Part shown: piece by piece, positions 12,370 to 56,600 of the stretch
How positions within the stretch are numbered: the first letter of the stretch is position 1
Layout: each line of letters starts with the position of its first letter
Assembly (NCBI GenBank): GCA_013407085.1
Contig: JACCGJ010000281.1
Location: 1 to 64,000 of the forward strand
DNA length: 64,000 nt
Direction of reading: 5' to 3'
Source of the DNA: Atriophallophorus winterbourni
Taxonomy: Eukaryota > Platyhelminthes > Trematoda > Plagiorchiida > Microphallidae
Program-made: the position numbers and the translations under genes
The notes under the pieces: generated by a model
What the model was told of the DNA's origin: nothing
The model's input: only the letters and a program-made list of their open reading frames with translations
The model's database searches: none

Positions 12370-12572
12370 TACATTGTCATTATTCTAGTACCTTATCGTG
12401 TACGCTGGCATTATAATTTTTTAGCGATGATTGCTATATGATTACAAAATTTATAGGTCATATTTTCCTCGTTAATAGTAAAGTATATTTCAGTTTGAAT
12501 TATGATAGAAAGATTATTGAAATAAAATTAATTATCAAAGTAAAGTGTTGCTCACATCCCCATCCCTTACAC

Positions 12573-12612
12573 ACCACTACCGGTTTCAGGCTGTTTGCCA
12601 TCGTCAGGTGGA
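12573..12612 (-). ncRNA. Hammerhead motif, 241-bp repeat unit 1
   Basis: On the minus strand, CTGACGA (12607-12601) and GAAA flank a stem II of three pairs (GGC/GCC) whose first position is a U-U mismatch. Stem I is CCAC/GTGG, four pairs. Stem III is the palindrome ACCGGT with a GTA cleavage triplet. The core is complete, but stem II is weakened, so activity is uncertain. Confidence 0.75.
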
Positions 12613-12813
12613 GACAGTAAGATCAGATTCAGTGAGCCTTGAAACAGTGGATTAATGGTAAACAAAGTTAAACTTGTATGCCACTGTTATATAGGGTTCT
12701 TACAAAGAACAACGATGTTCAAACACTGAATCACAAAGTGATTCTTGGTCAAGCACTCGAGGCGCTTATGGGTAACCAAAGTAAAGTGTTGCTCACATCT
12801 CCACCCCTTACAC

Positions 12814-12853
12814 ACCACTACCGGTTTCAGGCTGTTTGCCATCGTCAGGTGGA
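12814..12853 (-). ncRNA. Hammerhead motif, 241-bp repeat unit 2
   Basis: Through the core this is the same sequence as unit 1 (core strand at 12848-12842, GAAAC at 12828-12824), including the U-U mismatch at the base of stem II. Confidence 0.75.
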
Positions 12854-13053
12854 GACAGTAAGATCAGGTTCAGTGAGCCTTGAAACAGTGGATTAATGGT
12901 AAACAAAGTTAAACTTGTATGCCACTGTTATATAGGGTTCTTACAAAGAACCACGATGTTCAAACACTGAATCACAAAGTGATTCTTGGTCAAGCACTCG
13001 AAGCGCTTATGGGTAACCAAAGTAAAGTGTTGCTCACATCCCCATCCCTTACA

Positions 13054-13095
13054 CATTACTACCGGTTTCGTGCTGTTTGCACTCATCAGGTAGGG
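13054..13095 (-). ncRNA. Hammerhead ribozyme with canonical core, repeat unit 3
   Basis: The minus strand reads CTGATGA (13089-13083), stem II GTGC/GCAC closing a 5-base loop, then GAAA and the palindromic ACCGGT. The cleavage triplet is GTA, with cleavage predicted after the base at 13060. All invariant core bases are canonical and stem II is fully paired. Stem I is short here (CTAC/GTAA, three pairs). Confidence 0.85.
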
Positions 13096-13120
13096 ACAGT
13101 AAGATCAGGATGGGTTTAAG

Positions 13121-14849
13121 CCCATTAACATGTGTTTGGACACCTGTGATTGAACAGGGTTGGTCGTACCAGCCTTATCCAAAAGAGTTGATTATTTTGC
13201 ACGACTTATGCTCTCGATCAGCGAGTCGAAGTTGTTTATCACGCTGAACATTTTCTTCAATGATTTTAATGTCATTACTCTTCTGGTCGTAAGCAATTTT
13301 CCTTTCGACTAGATGTAGTATGCAGTTGTTTGCTTGAATTTATAAAAGCAGGAATAATTACTCTGAGATCTTGCTGTTAAGCGGATGTGCACTTGGTGGC
13401 CATTGAGTCCGAGCAGTTACATAAAAAACTTTGGTTATAAGTGTTAGTACTTGATGGTGATAGCACTCTAGATCTGCGCTACTAAACATTGCGGTTCGTG
13501 TATCACATTTAATGAATTCGGCTCCGAATTTTGTAAATATACACACTTATACACTTTGCATTCGTCTTGTTTTCTTTCATTTACCAAAATTCTTAAATAT
13601 TCGCGTTGAAATTATCATTTCCGTCGATAGCATTGGGTAGTTAAACGGTTAGGTCATTATTTATTTGAAAAAAATTCGATTACCGTATAACAATCACGAA
13701 TTTGCGGTCTGAGTTTTGAATAAATATCCACAAGCACAAAATAAGAACTCGGAAAGCAGGAACACGAAGGTGTACGGAATAACGCAAAGCCGTTGCTGGT
13801 CATTGTGTACAATATTTATGTGGTTAAAGTACTGCTGGTTGGCTGGATTACCATAACCGCCCAAGTGACATGTAGTGGCGGCAAGTGGAAGATGAACGTA
13901 TCCCAGCGCGAGCGCACAGTTCGACAAACCAACGTAGGAATAGTGATAATGATAAGCCTTCGACAGCATTTCACTCTTGTTGTGCAAAATGAAATAGAAC
14001 GACAAGATTGACGCAAAATACAAGTCCCTTTACACTGATTTCTGCTAGTTTTACACGCATAGATTTTACGTATGGATTCGAATTAGCTGCCTTCATTGGC
14101 TGGGAATGACTGATAAATTCAAAAAGCAGCGAGATGTAATTCAATTGCCGAATGCTAATCAAGTGACAAATCTAAGCCAAGGAATAAGAAAATAAATAAT
14201 AGAAAACCTTTATTTGAATTTAGTTGTATTATCACACCTGCGCTGACTTCAAAGTTTAGGCTAGGTTTAAGGTTTTTCCATTGTTTCAGAACATGCGGAT
14301 CCTGATGCGTGACTGCACTTACGAATAAAAATAGCACGAGACCAGACCTGAGGTGTATATTGGAAAAGCATGTAAACATTAATTTTATCAAGGTCAAATT
14401 TTGTTTTCAACGATATGTTTCTTAACTTCTAAAAAATTCCTATTGGTCAAAATTCAAAACGGCTTTTTAATACATAGAACACCGCTAGGCAGTCCTCAGC
14501 CGATCGGCTGCAGATGCACACCTACATCCTGTATCTGGAAGCTTTACACAATACTTCCGAAGCGGTCTAGCACAAGGTTTTTGCAAATCAAAGGGTCACA
14601 ATAAAAAGCTTTCATATCTCAGTTGAAATAGTCTTTGTACCGCATTTCCGGTCTGTCCAAAGGTCGAAAACCTGATTTCAACCCACCATTGAGTAAATCT
14701 TTTCGAACATGCCCACCTAGCGCGCCTGTACCATTGTGATATGGTGAATATCACTTCAGCGCATTATGTACTTTGTCCATCCACAATAGAGAGCATTCGC
14801 TCCATTAACAAGTTGTCTTCGTGAAAATCCCAATGCTATTGTAGATAAG
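13121..14849. other. Non-coding stretch upstream of kinesin exon
   Basis: No gene is recognised. It contains a decayed hammerhead-family copy (listed separately). Short frames on both strands at 13.7-14.4 kb show no family resemblance. Upstream kinesin exons might be hidden here, but none could be supported. Confidence 0.4.
14288..14375 (+). repeat. Decayed copy of the dispersed hammerhead repeat
   Basis: It starts with the same CATGCGGATCCTGAT leader as the intact copy at 28.5 kb and keeps AAAATAGCACGA where stem II and its loop should be. Both core strands are mutated, so it should be inactive. Confidence 0.55.
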
Positions 14850-40339
<25,490 letters not shown>

Positions 40340-43009: not shown

Positions 43010-44480
43010 TGGATCATCGTAGGCTATATTCGTAAGATACCTTACAATGATCAACACCTCACGTTCAGAGAAATCACGGATAATGATTTGATACTGGAAG
43101 ATACACTTTGGTGTTCACTTGAATTAGCAACAGGTGAAAACTGTGTTGTTGGTGTCATTTACCGACCACCGTCAGCAGACGAAGCATACAATGCTAGTTT
43201 AATTGAGAAAAATCAGCTGGTTGTTTCCAGATATCAAAACAACGTCCTGATCATGGGTGACTTTAATCTCCCGAATTTACTAAAAAGCGAGATTCCACCG
43301 GTGAACTCTCTTGATCATCTATTCTACAAAATGTTCAACGAAATTCCTTTATTCAACCACATCTCAAGCAGCACTCGCTTCAGAGGCACAAACACGCCGT
43401 CCATTCTCGATTTTGTTCTGACGAGCGAGGAAAATGTCATCGAGGATATCCGCTATGAAGCACCTCTTGGAAAGAGTGATCATGTAGTCATTGTTTTCGA
43501 CTATATATCTGAAGCGAAAAGAGCAAGTGATGCTCAGAAGTTGATAAGAAAAATCGATACGGTTGCATTATCAATGTCTCTTCAAGAAGTCACCGACTGG
43601 GCACCGATTAGCACTGATGTTTAACAATGCTGGTCATCGATACTTCAGAAAATCAACCGAAAAATAGAACTCCACTCAAAATATGTTTCAAAACAACTGA
43701 AAAAAGGATTAGAATTCGTGATCCGGAGTCGAACACGGAAATGGATAAAGGTGAGAAACTGTACGTGGAGAAGCCACATACTGCATTCAACACCTGAATC
43801 TTGGGAATCTTACCGTTTGTTGAGAAACAAAGATACTAAACTTGTCCAGGAGGATGAAGAAAAATATCAAATGAATCTGATGGATAAAATTGAACGAAAT
43901 CCGAAGCTCCTCTTCCAGATCGTGAACAGAAAAGCCAGGGTAAAGCCAGGTGTTTCCGCTTTACTTACTACGACTGGAACTACATCCACAGCTCTCGAAG
44001 CCGCTAACGAACTCGCTCAATTTTACTCTAGAGTGTTCTACCCTAACGAGCGCGTATCCTACGATATACCTGCATTTAGGTCGCAGAATACAATACACGA
44101 AATCGTTGTGAAACCCGAGAGTGTCCTGGTAAAGCTACGCGGGTTAAATACAAAAAAATCCCCGGGTGCTGATGAAATAACACAATTCATCCTAAAGCAA
44201 TGCGCCCATGCTCTATTCTCACCACTCTCTGACCTTTTCAACCTGTCCTTGAGTTGTAGCACGGTTGCTAATGACTGGAAAAGTGGACTAATCACTCCGA
44301 TATACAAAGGAGGGAACCGATCTGATGTGTCTAACTACAGACCAGTCACGTTGTTGCCAGTGGTCTCTAAAGTTCTCGAACGACTTGTGGCTGACGAACT
44401 TATCAAACACTTGGAACAAAATAAGCTTCTTTCCATCGCACAGCACGGATTCAGGACAAGACACTCCTGTCTTCCATCGC
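43010..44480 (+). mobile_element. CR1-like LINE, endonuclease and RT fingers in one frame with a single stop
   Basis: One frame runs from about 43010 to 44485 with only a TAA at 43622-43624. The endonuclease shows ENCVVGVIYRPPSADEAYN, MGDFNLPNL, STRFRGTNTPSILDFVLTSE and GKSDHVV (catalytic GDFN and SDH). After the stop come NKDTKLVQEDEEKYQMNLMD, NTKKSPGADEIT, GLITPIYKGGNRSDVSNYRP and LLSIAQHGFRTRHSC. The RT palm is missing because another LINE begins at about 44485. Apart from the single nonsense and the truncation it is well preserved. Confidence 0.88.
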
Positions 44481-44739
44481 GCTGAGACTGGACCTTAACG
44501 TGGTGCGATGGTTTGTGTACCTCTGTGACCCATTGCGCTATGCTGGGTGATGCTCTCCGAGCACCTTCAGAGTCACTCATACCAGGAAGGTCAATGGATA
44601 GAGGTCAGACGATCACGGTCTCAACCTAACCCGCTGCCTTGTGGGTCAGGCTTTTTAGCCAAAGGCTTTGGTCGAGAACCCTAATTGTTCTCCTGTCTAG
44701 GCATGGGCGACCTGGCAGTATCCCAGCCCGCATACAACC

Positions 44740-45783
44740 ATGACCATGACTATTAATACGAAACCCAACTCCATAGTGCATCGGCCGTGGCGCACGATAA
44801 ACAGGGTCGCCTTACCTGCTGCATACAGCAGGGCGGGTAAGCGAAAACAAGCTACTGCTGGCCCTACTCTTCAAACTGTTTCCGACCCTTCCCCTCCCCC
44901 ATCTACTCTTAACAACTCTCCGTCTGTCAATCCCAGCTTTAGAAAAGACCGCGCTGAACATGTTGGAACATTTTCTGTTCGCGAATCTACAGATCATTTT
45001 CTTAAACCACGGACCTCTGCTCACATCGGAGCCATGAATGTCAGGACTCTGAGACAAATAGGCCAGCAAGCTGCAATAGCTCTTACCTTAGATAGTCTAT
45101 CTATTGATGTTTGCTGTTTATCGGAAACGCGCTTATATGATCCGTCTCTAATAACCGAACTTACTGCCCCAAACCTTTCAACTCGTTACTTTTTGCGCTG
45201 TTCTGGTGATTCTGTAGCTGCCCTTTCAGGACAGGCGGGTGTTGGTATAGTGCTGAATTCGCGCGCCGAATCCTGTCTAATCGATTGGATTCCTTGTAAT
45301 AGCAGGATGTGCGCAGTTAGACTAGCCACCAATATTAGACCAAACTCAAAATCTTCTAATGATCAGAGATGCTTGTTTATTGTAGCAACTTACGCTCCAA
45401 CTAACACCAATTCCGACGACGAGAAGAACGCCTTCTACGACGATCTTTATGCTCTTTTGCGACGTGCAAAAAGCTCCGATATTGTTGTCTTAGCAAGAGA
45501 TATGAATGCCAGACTAGGTCGCTTAGATACATCTGAATCACAATTAGGTGGCATGTTTGGTATTGAAAGCCAACGCACAGATAATGGTGAACGGTTTATA
45601 CAATTCTGTGCACAATCTCGATTATTCATTAGCAGCACCTCCTTTCGCCATAAAAGATGTCAATGTGCCACATGGCGCTCGCCGGATGGAAGCCAACCTT
45701 CGGCCCAAATCGACCATATCGCCATAAGTGCTCGCTGGAGAGGTTGCATTGAGGACTGCCGCTCTTTTGGAATACCTGCGTAG
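44740..45783 (+). CDS. RTE endonuclease ORF
   Basis: 347 codons. It has a Pro/Ser-rich leader, then HIGAMNVRTLRQIGQQAA (AP-endonuclease start), DVCCLSETRLYDPS (catalytic E), FIVATYAPTNTNSDDEKN, DMNARLGRL and QIDHIAISARWRG. The usual GDFN is ARDMN here, so the catalytic D-N pair remains but its flanks differ. The frame stops just before SDHALVR, which is present one frame away at 45785. Confidence 0.8.
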   Translation: MTMTINTKPNSIVHRPWRTINRVALPAAYSRAGKRKQATAGPTLQTVSDPSPPPSTLNNSPSVNPSFRKDRAEHVGTFSVRESTDHFLKPRTSAHIGAMNVRTLRQIGQQAAIALTLDSLSIDVCCLSETRLYDPSLITELTAPNLSTRYFLRCSGDSVAALSGQAGVGIVLNSRAESCLIDWIPCNSRMCAVRLATNIRPNSKSSNDQRCLFIVATYAPTNTNSDDEKNAFYDDLYALLRRAKSSDIVVLARDMNARLGRLDTSESQLGGMFGIESQRTDNGERFIQFCAQSRLFISSTSFRHKRCQCATWRSPDGSQPSAQIDHIAISARWRGCIEDCRSFGIPA

Positions 45784-45921
45784 ATTCAGATCATGCTCTT
45801 GTGCGATGTAGGTTCTCGTTAAAGTTCTCCGGTGCGAAGCCCTCGAATGGGAAACGCATTGCTGTCGAAAAATTCTTTCAGCCTGCAGTTCAAGACATTT
45901 ATAGGACCACCTTGAGTAACT

Positions 45922-46018
45922 AGGCCTGGGCAACCTGACAGTATCTTAGCCCACGTGCAGTCTCTGACTGTGCGGCACTTTGCCTGGACCAGGCTTGTGC
46001 TTTCATACATACATACAT
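45922..46018 (+). mobile_element. SINE-like element with CATA tail
   Basis: About 97 bases with a 13-bp duplication, ACCTTGAGTAACT, at 45909-45921 and 46019-46031. It starts AGGCCTGGGCAACCTGACAG and ends in four CATA units. Omitting it joins YRTTLSNS of the host LINE in frame. Related copies lie at 50781, 52903, 56195, 57862, 58602 and 60404. Confidence 0.85.
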
Positions 46019-46031
46019 ACCTTGAGTAACT

Positions 46032-46837
46032 CACTCCCAGTTGCCCAGTATGCAACTACCGATGAAAGGTGGAACAAAATAGCAGGGATTATGCGAGCCG
46101 CCGCAATAACAGCCTGTGAGACTGCACAACCAACCCAAAAGTCCCACTGGATTTCACATCGCTCTATAGAAATTCTTCACCAGCGACGCGAAATACCTCA
46201 TGGTCCTGGACACAACACAGAGCGTAGACGCGTGAGGAATGAACTTAAACGGAGCCTAAGACTAGACAGAGAAAGGTGGTGGCTAAATAAGGTCGAAGAA
46301 ATGGAAATAGCAAATAATGCGGGTAACGTGCGAAAACTCTTCCAACTTATTCGATCGACTGGGCCCACGAAACAAGGAGTGAGTGAGATTATAGCGGAAT
46401 TAGACGGTACTCTTATCACTAATAAGAATCGCCGCCTGTCACGCTGGGCCGAACATTTTGAAGAACAATTCAGCTGGTCGCCTGCAACAGAATCATTCCC
46501 TCACTTGAGGCAGTGTGATCCTTGGCCTGTTAGCGTAGATCCCCCTAATGATTTAGAAATTAAAGCCTGTATCGAATCTATGAAACGATTCAAAGCTGCT
46601 GGCCCCGATGACATACCGCCTGTTTTGTTCAAAAAAGGTGGCCAAGTCCTAATCAGCACATTAGGATATCTCCTCCGTGAAATGTGGATGTCAGAATCCG
46701 TCCCTCCGAGTTGGGGCGAATCAGTTATCATACCTATATTTAAAAAAGGTGTGCGAAGCTCATGCTCTAATCACCGTGGGATAAGTCTCACTCCCATCAT
46801 TACGAGATTATTAGCGTCCATATGTCTCGAAGATTAA
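46032..46837 (+). CDS. RTE RT N-terminal segment
   Basis: It is open from the SINE junction to a stop at 46837. It encodes DERWNKIAGIMRAAAITACE, then RLDRERWWLNKVEEME, SMKRFKAAGPDDIPPVLFKK and IIPIFKKGVRSSCSNHRGIS, the RT fingers. A frameshift near 46820 leads into the RT palm frame. Confidence 0.8.
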
Positions 46838-48117
46838 CATCGCATAGAGAACCACAGATCCGTGAGCAGCAAACTGGCTTCCGGCCTGGCAGAGGCTGTG
46901 TCGACCACATTTTTACTCTTCGACGGATATTAGAACTGCGGCACACCTATCGACAGCCGACAATAGCCATCTTTTTAGACTTCAAAGGAGCATTTGATTC
47001 AGTCGATCGAAATGTCCTGTTTAAGACCTTGCTGTGCAAAGGCGTTCCGCATAAGTATGTCAACATACTACGCGCACTTTATGCTCATACATCCGGATAC
47101 GTTAAGGTTTACAACGAACTTTCTCCCAAATTCAACACTACAAGTGGCGTCCGACAAGGATGTCCGATTTCTCCGTTTTTGTTCAATTTCGTAATTGATG
47201 CTATCATGGAATTATGCAGCGACGGTGCTCCAGCCTTCGGAGTTCACATAATGCCAGGCGTCAAGCTTCTCGACTTGGATTATGCTGATGACATAGTTCT
47301 GCTTTTCGACTCATACACAGATGCACAGGCGATACTGAACAAGCTATCTAGTATTGTGCCCGCATTTGGAATGCGTTTTGCGCCCTCTAAGTGCAGTGTT
47401 CTTCTGCAGGACATCGACTTATCGAACAAGGCTTTATTACTTGACAATCAGGCGCTTGAAATTGTGGATCGTTTTAAGTATCTCGGTAGTTGTATCAATA
47501 ATTCTGCATCGTTAGATTACGAGGTCTCGGCACGCATTTCTAAAGCGACCGTAGCATTCCGCAACCTAGGTCACCTCTGGCGTCAGAAAGGACTGTCTCT
47601 GCTACTCAAGGGTAGAGTCTATAAAGCGACAGTTCGGGCTGTGTTACTGTATGGGTGCGAAACCTGGACCTTACGTAAAGAAAACATTCAGCGTCTCCAA
47701 GTATTTGACAACCGGTGTCTCCGCAGCATTCTAGGAGTTAGCTGTTACAATCGTATGCGCACCGATGCTCTCCGAAATAAGTTGTTTGGTAGTAATGTCG
47801 ATATAGAGAAGCAGATTAACCTGCATAGGCTACGCTGGTTGGGTCACGTTTTACGGATGCCGGACCACCGACTTCCGAAACAGATTCTTTTTGCGACGCC
47901 ACATCCTGATTGGCGTAAATCTAGGGGTGGCCAAACCGTCACATGGCATAGGCAGCTAAAAATTCTTACTAGTAACCTTTCCAAAATAGGCGCAGCGCGT
48001 CTTCCAGGCTGGTGTCCCCGCGATCATATATCGCAATGGTTAGTTACGCTTCAGGATATGTCCCGAAACCGTGTTCAATGGCGGACTTGCACTAAGCATC
48101 TTGGAGTGTTTGCATAA
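46822..48117 (+). CDS. RTE reverse transcriptase palm, thumb and C-terminus, open
   Basis: 431 codons without interruption. Motifs are QQTGFRPGRGCVDHIFTLRR, IFLDFKGAFDSVDR, SGVRQGCPISPFLFNFV and the catalytic LDYADDIVLL, then FKYLGSCINNSASLDYEVSA and LLYGCETWTLRKENIQRLQV. LHRLRWLGHVLRMPDHRLPK is the usual RTE C-terminal block. All catalytic aspartates are present. Confidence 0.9.
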   Translation: MSRRLTSHREPQIREQQTGFRPGRGCVDHIFTLRRILELRHTYRQPTIAIFLDFKGAFDSVDRNVLFKTLLCKGVPHKYVNILRALYAHTSGYVKVYNELSPKFNTTSGVRQGCPISPFLFNFVIDAIMELCSDGAPAFGVHIMPGVKLLDLDYADDIVLLFDSYTDAQAILNKLSSIVPAFGMRFAPSKCSVLLQDIDLSNKALLLDNQALEIVDRFKYLGSCINNSASLDYEVSARISKATVAFRNLGHLWRQKGLSLLLKGRVYKATVRAVLLYGCETWTLRKENIQRLQVFDNRCLRSILGVSCYNRMRTDALRNKLFGSNVDIEKQINLHRLRWLGHVLRMPDHRLPKQILFATPHPDWRKSRGGQTVTWHRQLKILTSNLSKIGAARLPGWCPRDHISQWLVTLQDMSRNRVQWRTCTKHLGVFA

Positions 48118-50622: not shown

Positions 50623-53600
50623 TATATAGTTAGATAGAATGATATATATATAGGCATGATCCCGGAGCTTTGTAAAGTGTCACATAGCCTAGCCGTTTTT
50701 CGTTATCGCTTTTTAATTGCTTCTCTGTAACCACATTTACTCTAACCGGTTTTCGCCTTTCCTTTGCTACCTCACGCTCGTATATATGAAATCACAAGTC
50801 TGATCCAGGCAAAGTGCCGCACATTCATAAACTGCACATTGTCTAAGATACTGTCAGGTTGCCTAGGCCTAGACGCGCACATACGTTTGGATAGTGCTGA
50901 CAATTTATCATAAGCAATCACTGCTTTGCTGGACTACGTCATCGTGTTAGCTAGTTAGGTCCGATTCGTTGGCTCAGGAAAATGCGCGTCATTGGTTTAC
51001 GGCAGCTTGGTAAGTTTACCCTTGATATCTAGAGTGGTTTTTGACAAGAGGGCCAAGTTTGAAGGTGTAGTCGATTGTGAAAATTAGATAATGTGCATGA
51101 ACTTTGTAGGCGTATTTCTCAACACTTTTTCACACTTAACATGATAATCTCAGTAATACGATGAGTTGCCTACTCTGAAGAAGGACAATCCTATTGGCAA
51201 TCTAGTTTTATGCGGGACGCCTTATACCGACTTAATTTCAGTGAGTCCGCACTGCTACACGAGAAATTCGGACAAAATGGGAATCTATTCAATCTATATA
51301 CTGCCACATTTCGATCTCTTAAATCTAAAACTTCTTTAACTCCTTGCGGATCGTCAGTCTAAACTATTCGTGAAATTGTATGAGGGCTATATAATTGATT
51401 GTAGTCAATGAAATGCTACAAAGTTGTATTTTCTCTTATTCCAAGACAATACTTTTGTTTAAACAAAAGCTTCCTATCATCACAACCACGTCAAACAATT
51501 TCGTAGGCACATAATTTCGCTTGTTTGTAGGTATTGGACTATTTTACTATCGACTATCTCAGGCGAGACTGCAGCTTCCCGACGCATCCGAACACCAATC
51601 CGGAGCACTCTGCCAGGCACAACATCTTAGGCGGCGATGTTTACGACACGTTGACTTACAACGACTCAAAAAGAATGCAAGCGTTTTCACAAGTTCGATC
51701 GGTGCTCTTCTGCTAGGGGCGATCGTTCCTTGTTTCGCAATCAGATGGGCAGGAACTAACCCCAGATCGTTGTTTCGAAGAGATACTGGCAGCGTCCAAC
51801 TTTGTGACGTCATCCGACAACGAGATACCGGATGAGGCGTTATACGGTAGAACGGGCTATCTATGCGCTCTGTTGATTCTTGAATCGGCTGGATTCAGCA
51901 TAAACAGTAGTTTGTTCACTCAAGTACGTTTGCCAATCAAATGTAATTGCTGGTCGTTATCAGACGGCAATCCGTCTTTTTTCTCATAAAAGAAAAACTG
52001 TTGAGCAACCTTACACCGGTATCAAATACCGGGTGCTAATTACCGTATAACCATGACACGTTAAAAATCCTAAAAATGTTGGGAAAAGTAGGATCTAAAA
52101 AGCCACTAAACCTATAAAAGATTATGTGCAGACACACTCGTTTGAGGTGCCTATTCTTCGAATCAAGCAAGCGTTGTGAAAGAGTTGAACGTCTTCTGCA
52201 TAACGGCTTCCTCTTGGCTTTGCAAATTAATACCTTACCCTCTTATTTTTTTACGCTTTGTCACGTAAACCTGTGTTATTTGATTGAACTGGTTTGTACT
52301 GTGTACTTTTAAAGGTTAGTTCTTTCCTGTTGCAAAAATTTGTTGACCAATGATATTCTCAAAAGTAAAAGACATTAATGAATACAATGAATTTTTTATG
52401 CAATTGGTTAAAGTAGATTCATGTGAATTTTCGCCAAGCCAAGAGTAAGGGTCAGAACATGGGATGTCATAAGATAGCACTGTATTCATCGCGTCTAATT
52501 GGCCTTACCACTGAACAATCTAGAAATGTCAATTCACGTAGACTATGCCAATATCAGTTAGCCTATTTGCCAAGCAACGCACTTATCCGAGTTAATCCCT
52601 AAACGTGAATGCGGCGAAGGTTACTTGGCACTGCGGTTTACTTGTGCTTGACAAAAATCTATTACAATATGCTAAAGTTAATCACTTAAAAAATTGGGTT
52701 TAATGTTAAGCTTTATTTATTGTGACCCTTATCAAGAACGTTTCCCAAAACTGCTCTAAGTGATTGCGTACACGATGGGCGACAAACATTTTCAATCACC
52801 TGAAAGTGGCATCTTTCTGTTCGCCTTATTAAGACAGTGGATGAGCGAGACCGAAATCAAGAGATATGTTTTTGATTTTAAGTTATTTTTTCTGTGCAGG
52901 TGATGTATGTATGAAATCGCAAGTCTGATCGAGTCAAAGTGCCGCACAACGAAAGACTGCTTGCGTGCAAAGATACTAACAACTTTGTGCTAATTCGAGG
53001 ATAAATTCTCATTTGCAAATTGAAATTTAGCTTTTATGTGGGGACTAATCTAAGTCTTACAGTTGGTGCAATGTAGCACTAGTAACTGTTTGAAATATTA
53101 TCGCAGCATTCCAATAACAGCATGATTGTAGTTTTTTTCTTTTAAGTCAGATTTTTACTAATAAGTAGTATATGACGTTCGAAAAGCAGACGGAAGCACA
53201 CTAGCGGTTTTCGCGTTATTGCCGCTCATCAGGGTAGGCGTTCCGTGACCTGACATTCGAACGCCGTGCGGACTTGTGCTAACCCATTATCTTTGGAATT
53301 CGCGCATAAATCTTCATTTGTCAAATTGAAATTTAGCTTTAATGTGGGGCTAATCTAATCCCACCGTTGGTGCAATGTAGCACCGGCGTTCAGGTCACGG
53401 ATACGCATACCTGATGAGCGGCAATAACCGCGAAACCGCTCGTGTGCTTCCGTCCTGCTTTTCGAACGTCATATACTACTTATTAATACAAATCTGACTT
53501 AAAACACAAACTACAATCATGCTGTTATTGGAATGCTGCAAAAATATTCCAAACAGCTACCGGTGCTACATTGTACCAACTGTGGGACTTTCATTAATTC

Positions 53601-56600
53601 CCACATACAAGCTAAATTTCAATTTGCAAATGAAAATTTATCCTCGAATTCGCAAATACTGACAACTTTCCCAGACCTAAATAGCCGTGTTCCAACAAAC
53701 AGCTCATTCCTGTTGACCAAACATTGCAAACGATGGCACTCAAGCTCTTTTACAAGTGTGGTGGAGCGTTATGTAGAAATCTTTGATTGATAAATAAATG
53801 TTAGTAATCTTATTTACATGGTTAAGTGTACACGTGGCATATGCCTATGCGTTACCGAAACGACTAGGAAACTTCATATCGACCGCGAAGAATCTGGAAC
53901 CTCACTAAAAGCAACCATAAATGTGATTATGAATTTTATGCCCCTTCTTCAATGCTATCCTAGCACGTCTTGCATACAAAACAATATACACTACTTGCAT
54001 TCAAGCACCAAGTGCAACTACAAATCATGTGTTGCAACTTTTTGTATCTGGTATGTATTCGAGCAAAACTTGTGTGGCACGTATTTGTACAAAATCAATA
54101 TTCATAACTTACAAAGGACATTTTGCTCTTGTTATCTTTAATCTCATTCACTGCTTATCTACATGTGAATGACTGAATTATCCAATATATAGTTAAACAT
54201 GCAATTGATTTTTTGTAGTTTATCCGTCACATCGCGCCGTACAGTACACATGGTTGTTAGAGTAACGTTTAATCAATGTTTAGGAATCTTTTATTTCATC
54301 AGCAAGACGTTACTCAGTCGGCACCAACTCCTTCCATGGTGTTACTCGATTTTTAGTTTTTAAAACGTTTCGCTGTTGTCCTGCATCGTTCATCGTGATG
54401 ACACATTTGCTTAAATGCCATATTATTCTTTATCTTTTTCGCTAACACTTCGTTGTAGGTAGTTGAGGCAATTATTAAATCCGGGTTGAGAACAGCCAAA
54501 CGCTATCAAAATGATGGCTTGTACGCTGAACTCATGCAGCGTTCTTCTCACTCCAAACTACCCATGCCCCCTTTGATGTTTGAATGGCATGGCAAAGCTT
54601 ACTTGGGTGGTGCCCATGGCTTCGCCGGGATTTTACTCACACTGCTCAAGGTATGTATGTTCACCCGAAGATACCTTAACTTTACTCTGTCATATCGGGT
54701 CATTTGGGAATGCATCTTGCATTTGTAACGATTTGCCTCAATACATGAATGTGCTGTTTGTCATACTTTTGATAGCTGACTATCTAATGGTGTGCCGTTC
54801 GCTTCGTGTATCCCTAATGCTACCTCGCAATGTGGATGTATCGCCTCCAATCGTCACTGTTGAAAACTGTCAGCTTGAACCAGTACATCATTTCCGTTAT
54901 CTTGGTTCAATCATTGCGGATAACCTCTCGCTAGACACGGAGATTGGTAAGTGGATTGGCAGGGCAGCTGTCATTTTGTCCCGATTGAACTCTCGTGTTT
55001 GAAGTAACCACAAGTTGACTGTAAAGACAAAGATGATGGTATACATGGTGCGTACTAAATGTTTTAATGTACGGCAGTTAAACCTGGACTACTTGCGCAA
55101 GATACGAACGTATGCTGAATGCTTTCCATCTACGAAGCATCCGTCGTATCTTGAACATATCATGGATGGACAGAGTGACTAATGCTGAAGTGCTTTCAAA
55201 AGCTGGTCTACAGAGCATGTTCACCCTACTACGACAGCGCCGCCTGCGGTGGCTTGGCCACGTCTACAGAATGGAGAATGGTCGTATTCCGAAAGATCTA
55301 CTCTATGGTGAGTTGCAATCAGAAAGTCGACCATTGGGCACTTGGGGTACATAATCTTCCCACCCCTTACAATAATACTTTCTCGGTGTTGACAGTTTGG
55401 CCTCTTACACACGAAGTGATCTCTTTTGGCGCACTGTCCCCGTTTAACGAATAATGGTCTGCAATTGACTCTAGCTTTACTAAACTAGTGCTAAACAAAT
55501 ATTTTCATTTCAACCGAATTCTCAATTTTTTCAGGTTCATCATCGCCATCCGGAAGTGTTTTCTCCCAAAGCGGTTCAAGATTTGATTATGCCAACCGTG
55601 CGTTGGATGGGAGAATTGCAACTGAATTCGGGAAATTGGCCTTCCAGTTTGGGGAACAGTGTTGTTCGCGATGTTTTGGTCCACTGGTGTCATGGAGCGA
55701 CTGGAGTCGTGCCACTCATGCTGGCTGCTTATGAGGTTTGCGTGGCACTATCAACTATCCTACATCAGTTACCATTTCCCTGTGCTCTAAAATGCCGTAA
55801 AAACGTATTATGGTCTTCATGTCTCGCACAAGTCTCTAGTTGACTATCTTACACTCTGTACGAATCACGAATTTTGGTTAGTGCTTGTATTTCTTCTCTG
55901 ACGGCAGTCTGTCACTCATCAGACTAACTGGTTATTTTACCACGTATCCGATTGCCTAATTATAGATTGCGTTAAGATCCATTCTTGTTTCATCCGTTTT
56001 GCCATCCGGAGTGTAAAGAATGATGCTGCAAGCTCATTTCAACTAAGCATCTGCATGATTCACTTTCTTTTTACGTGTTTGCTTGTCTGCATTTCCTCCT
56101 TCATTTTGCTTGGCACTGTCTGGCTCCAGCCCTTAGCTTCATGATAACGATGATCATGATGCAACCTTGAGACTTGCATCATCTCAGCACACACGCGGTC
56201 TATCAGACTGCGCAGAACTTTGTCTAATTCCAAGTCTATGCTCACATGCATACATACGTACATACATACATACATACATACATACATACATACATACATA
56301 CATACATACATCCCTACTTCGGTGTAGGCAACCACCCTACTTCGGTGTAGGCAACCGGGTAGTATCATGCCTACGGTTCAACGATGCCGATGACAACGCT
56401 TTGGTACCCCCCTTCTCGCTTTGTAACATCTCATTGTTTAGTGTTAAACGCACTTATCTGTATCAGATTGTGCAAATATACGCAATAATAATCTAATACA
56501 TACATGCATACTATACATACATACGTACTCATACATACACACATACATACATACATACATACATACATACATACATACATACATACATACATACATACAT

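Follow-up and report, generated by a model that had tools for sequence, protein, structure and literature searches.

How did a short repeat that carries a hammerhead motif come to stand in tandem in a trematode genome, and does its copying pass through RNA? The question is raised by an array in the window, the 64,000-nucleotide stretch of Atriophallophorus winterbourni DNA analysed here. The array probably arose as a non-LTR retrozyme copy: its minus-strand RNA is predicted to be self-cutting, and the resulting 241-nt circles would be reverse-transcribed into new sites. TRF assigned the interval in Table 1 a period of 241, with 2.4 copies and 95% matches, which makes two complete 241-bp units followed by a third cut short at about 13109. 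A sequence-only reading of this DNA had described an exact 241-bp array; the period stands, whereas exactness does not, units 1 and 2 being 97% identical, and the third unit is incomplete. The same reading placed a hammerhead on the minus strand of each unit, and the motif scan recovered all three sites at a spacing of 241, each with the CUGANGA–stem II–GAAA core followed by the palindromic ACCGGU and a final A.

Table 1. Features of the array and of related elements in the window; predicted cuts are inferred from the motif.
Feature	Position	Strand	Core, CUGANGA to final A	Predicted cut	Basis and remarks
Putative family-A retrozyme array	12536..13109	(-), ribozyme sense			TRF and genome matches
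Sense-3′ end of array	12536..12544	(-)			41 nt beyond the unit 1 predicted cut; recurrent family-A entry point
Hammerhead motif, unit 1	12572..12613	(-)	12578-12607	12578/12577	Sequence and motif scan; U-U at stem II base
Hammerhead motif, unit 2	12813..12854	(-)	12819-12848	12819/12818	Sequence and motif scan; U-U at stem II base
Hammerhead motif, unit 3	13054..13095	(-)	13060-13089	13060/13059	Core of family B, 3′ side of family A
Family-B segment, inverted relative to its ribozyme	13110..13185	(+)			Comparison with B loci; 76 bases
Family-B hammerhead motif, canonical core	28544..28585	(+)			Motif scan
Truncated family-A monomer, core mutated	34323-34422 within 34310..34435	(-)			13-bp target duplication, 34310-34322 and 34423-34435
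Family-E foldback	52988..53654	(.)			Inverted repeats; hammerhead 53390-53464 (+), degenerate inverted copy 53182-53248 (-)

The elements CUGANGA, GAAA and ACCGGU are common to family A, to which the array belongs, and to two further families, B and E. Motifs with both core and stems occur five times in the 64-kb window (three in the array and one each at 28550 and 53411), and the same scan of 60 first-order-Markov shuffles of the window returned none. Helix I has four contiguous pairs in units 1 and 2 and three in unit 3. In units 1–3, as in the B and E motifs, helix III is a single pair closed by a palindromic CCGG (A-CCGG-U), the arrangement that defines the newt type. Its energy is +6.0 kcal/mol as a hairpin and −8.3 as a duplex of two copies; since helix III lacks a stable hairpin and pairs between copies, the ribozymes would be expected to act as dimers. 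The one-pair helix III of families A, B and E similarly suggests that dimeric cleavage is favoured over monomeric cleavage, as has been described for newt and axolotl (PMC7229834). Its presence in three abundant fluke families extends the known range of the newt-type design.

In folds of single motifs the hammerhead is not the structure of lowest energy (−6.4 versus −8.9 in units 1 and 2; −3.6 versus −11.7 in unit 3), and helix III is open. Comparison with shuffled sequences is not decisive, as unit 1 folds no better than its shuffles (z 0.59) and unit 3 has a z of −1.79. Folded as circles, the sequences are 56–59% paired, with z of −1.2 and −1.6 against 100 shuffles. In a set of 17 chosen motifs from families A, B and D, both strands of helices I and II vary, yet at each position 12–17 of the motifs still pair; pairing is weakest at the base of helix II and in the outermost pairs of helix I.

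A U-U mismatch had been noticed in stem II of units 1 and 2; it is indeed present, and lies at the base of the stem. The corresponding position in 188 aligned full family-A units is U-U in 139, C-A in 35 and a standard or wobble pair in four, and among 100 family-A sites listed from exact-motif matches it is C-A in 79, U-U in 14 and something else in seven. The persistence of U-U or C-A at this position is an odd feature. Units with U-U alternate with C-A units inside otherwise similar arrays at loci L028, L042 and L043. A higher-order repeat built from this alternation was considered and rejected, there being no lag-4 drop in L028.

A hammerhead covariance model, proposed by the sequence-only reading as a check, responds weakly here: none of units 1–3 reaches the Rfam gathering score, nor does any other match in the window. 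In a 1.1-kb scan with Hammerhead_1 (gathering score 34), unit 3 scores 18.6 bits at E 0.23 and units 1 and 2 go unreported at E ≤ 10; a whole-window scan at E ≤ 5 reports neither units 1–3 nor the family-B motif at 28544. The model HH9 scores the family-E foldback at 31.2 bits (E 5.2e-6), under its gathering score of 52, and at 13.8 bits. Genome-wide, Hammerhead_1 has at least 32 matches, with 74 of 96317 candidates scored, and 27 of the 32 lie over the cut-off; the 13 that were fetched comprise ten of family D, nine of them over the cut-off, and three of family B. Three family-B members score 34.6–37.2 bits (cut-off 34), and others fall below at 32.9 and 20.4.

Recognition by Hammerhead_1, used here as the mark of a Smalpha-type ribozyme, is lacking in units 1–3 and present in family D elsewhere, the motifs of which are presumably Smalpha-like. 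Family-D hammerheads adjoin a GTTCGA-type box, which we take to be a Pol III B box, at L070–L076, L079, L081 and L082. The comparison with Schistosoma SINEs that had been drawn for the array is better transferred to family D, the helix III of the array being of the newt and axolotl kind described in the available text of PMC7229834.

The 537-Mb assembly (15840 contigs) contains 4521 exact 34-base motifs of family A (2332 + 2189), 2939 of family B (1409 + 1530) and 279 of family E (148 + 131), and reversed control patterns for the three families have no matches. A genome search with the 241-bp unit, also proposed beforehand, did uncover tandem arrays, with at least 209 matches when 40 of 4277 candidates were scored; the 307-bp family-E unit, present at C4214, C963, C11991, C14985 and C1232 as well as in the window, has at least 406 (40 of 1609 candidates scored). 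Up to 22 full family-A units were aligned at a single locus, L013, the most among the loci fetched. Each short tandem unit bears a type I hammerhead, at 241 bp in family A, about 231 bp in B and 307 bp in E, within the 150–450 bp of retrozymes, and the column-majority family-A unit from 188 units has a G+C of 0.44, below the retrozyme limit of 50%. Viral and prokaryote collections each yielded no match to the family-A motif. At L011 (3095-3158), L012 (2602-2664) and L029 (1027-1090) lies a further, related hammerhead-like element that shares the family-A 3′ end and whose stem II is shifted and weaker.

The ends of the insertions are informative about how they were made. Many family-A arrays share a sense-3′ end about 41 nt past the cut, with variable 5′ ends; family-B loci end 33–44 nt past the cut in 9 of 25 cases, and family-E arrays about 215 nt past it in four of six and about 72 nt in the other two. 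Recurring as they do away from the cut, these sense-3′ ends were not produced by the ribozyme. Among the loci studied, which were chosen from the best matches so that duplication and inversion rates are not genome-wide, target duplications of 10–15 bp accompany 5 of 19 family-A termini tested (four distinct loci), 3 of 25 family-B loci and 2 of 6 family-E arrays, and abutting inverted copies form seven junctions in the family-A set (L009–L044 and the window) and occur at 10 of the 25 family-B loci. Where present, the duplications thus exceed the 4 bp asked of retrozymes; the other 14 A termini (one of them that of the window array, with P 0.44), 22 B loci and 4 E arrays gave none of significance. 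At L018 and L032 the duplication encloses both the array and an inverted copy. The tally leaves out a 12-bp near-match at L025 (P 0.05), as well as 8 bp that match at L009 (P 0.20).

Thousands of motifs genome-wide, their arrangement in tandem, the target duplications that accompany a minority of copies and a recurrent sense-3′ end make up a DNA anatomy whose match to an animal retrozyme, the interpretation first offered from the window alone, is well supported.

Much of this anatomy could also arise by target-primed insertion from a long linear, multimeric read-through RNA with no circle, the hammerhead being a passenger or only a 5′ trimmer. Neither the duplications, nor the recurrence of the 3′ end, nor the variation of the 5′ ends needs a circle, and the single-motif folds do not favour the hammerhead. 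Such a route is nevertheless unlikely, as it requires RNA with at least 17 uncut units whose ribozymes are intact; the family-E array at C4214 has 17 full units and 17 intact motifs, with a mean difference of 2.6%. A linear RNA should, moreover, stop at the 3′ end of the array, yet the termini match unit sequence beyond it. At 18 family-A termini, taken from 32 hand-picked flanks and judged against assumed base frequencies, the flank resembles the unit sequence beyond the end above expectation, C standing at −1 in 13 and at −2 in 11; it looks as though the RNA template had continued past the array end.

The divergence of units within arrays bears on the number of events that produced them. A single 13-bp duplication encloses the whole array at C4214, and unit difference there is unrelated to spacing (rho −0.06, P 0.68); one duplication, with near units no more alike than far ones, is expected if the array was copied from an RNA circle in one event. 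Of 14 family-A arrays, three show a weak trend of difference with spacing (P 0.04–0.05) and 11 show none of significance, and units differ by 6.8% within loci versus 9.7% between loci. Repeated copying of one circle in a single insertion fits this divergence best, although random exchange among units could flatten the spacing trend in another way.

Exchange is central to the less probable proposal that the array is an ordinary satellite, multiplied by unequal DNA exchange, with the hammerhead as a relic. It is consistent with the family-A core, which is intact in 134 of 188 units, a degree of conservation that does not significantly exceed that of random positions (6.6% of random sets are at least as intact), and which therefore offers no proof of selection within family A. 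Some arrays also mix subfamilies, as exchange would do. A satellite of this kind accounts poorly, however, for whole arrays within single 13–14-bp duplications (C4214 and C11817), for a dispersed truncated monomer with its own duplication, for recurrent ends, or for the 11 family-A arrays and the family-E array in which difference does not clearly increase with spacing. Least probable of all is an origin of the units as pseudo-LTRs or as Penelope-like debris; elements of that type bear tandem type I hammerheads and are proposed helpers in the available parts of PMC7229834 and PMC7761336, but head-to-tail units at 241 or 307 bp leave no coding space.

Under the retrozyme reading, the minus strand of the array would be transcribed and the RNA would cut itself into 241-nt monomers, likely through pairs of ribozymes. 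The monomers would be ligated into circles, for which a tRNA-type ligase has been proposed in other animals (PMC7229834), and a helper enzyme would reverse-transcribe the circle round and round, by target priming, into new sites. Open reverse-transcriptase-type frames lie in the window at 7-1344, 43088-44485 and 44740-48117, and are possible helper candidates. Frame 46822-48117 has its best named match in a Dicrocoelium dendriticum reverse transcriptase (63% identical), with schistosomatids at about 52–54% among the best.

Unit 3 had been read as fully canonical. Its core is standard, but it is not an ordinary unit: positions 13058-13111 are identical (54/54) to the family-B locus L049, and beyond the cut on the 3′ side the unit is family A. 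Being a B/A chimera, it is not the natural copy for a first test. A jump of the enzyme from a family-A to a family-B template could have given rise to both unit 3 and its inverted tail, the inverted family-B segment probably representing a 5′ inversion of the insertion. A second A/B chimeric ribozyme is found at L047, within a 502-bp inverted repeat.

It is tentatively proposed, as a plausible extension rather than the expected outcome, that families A, B and E form a guild of dimer-acting elements copied by rolling-circle, target-primed synthesis, with a fixed entry point away from the cut, at least 17 turns in one insertion, jumps between circles of different families that yield chimeric ribozymes such as unit 3, and frequent terminal foldback. 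Were this true, each turn of copying round an RNA circle would be on record in the genome.

Retrozymes of animals have already been published, as have hammerheads with a short stem III in schistosome satellites (PMC7229834, PMC8490949). Literature listings, which were partial and left subscription papers mostly outside the search, contained no hammerhead or retrozyme report on a non-schistosome fluke, and the available text of PMC7229834 gives a single sentence to retrozyme-like repeats in platyhelminths. The same source reports demonstrated expression of linear and circular RNA from non-LTR retrozymes in coral, mussel and axolotl, and a model in which the circle is copied by LINE- or Penelope-type enzymes. 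Whole arrays in one duplication, an off-cut entry point, chimeras and foldbacks are footprints that make this circle-copying model testable; in the main text of PMC7229834 the terms 'inverted', 'foldback' and 'template switch' have no occurrences, and foldbacks and chimeric units go unmentioned there.

Schistosome W elements and Smalpha, likewise satellites of flukes, combine type I hammerheads with a very short stem III, and three of five tested candidates were active in vitro, according to the part of PMC8490949 available; family A resembles the Smalpha-like family D only in the ribozyme core. Hammerhead repeats of Nematostella have similar target duplications, LINE-like and 15 bp long, and duplications around whole long arrays are undescribed in the accessible text (PMC4918200). 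Penelope-like elements and Terminons share the tandem type I hammerheads and, as far as the available text of PMC7761336 describes them, carry reverse transcriptase between the repeats, whereas none was seen between the fluke units. The animal retrozymes accessible in PMC7229834 agree with the fluke in its 241-bp size and G+C of 0.44, whereas the predicted fluke circle folds are less paired. Closest in ribozyme design are those of newt and axolotl in the same source: HHR_Amex1 has a one-pair helix III with a palindromic tetraloop, as do families A, B and E, and HHR_Amex2 has U-U at the base of stem II, as do units 1 and 2. The axolotl and newt units measure 330–350 bp, against 231–307 bp in the flatworm, in which U-U alternates with C-A.
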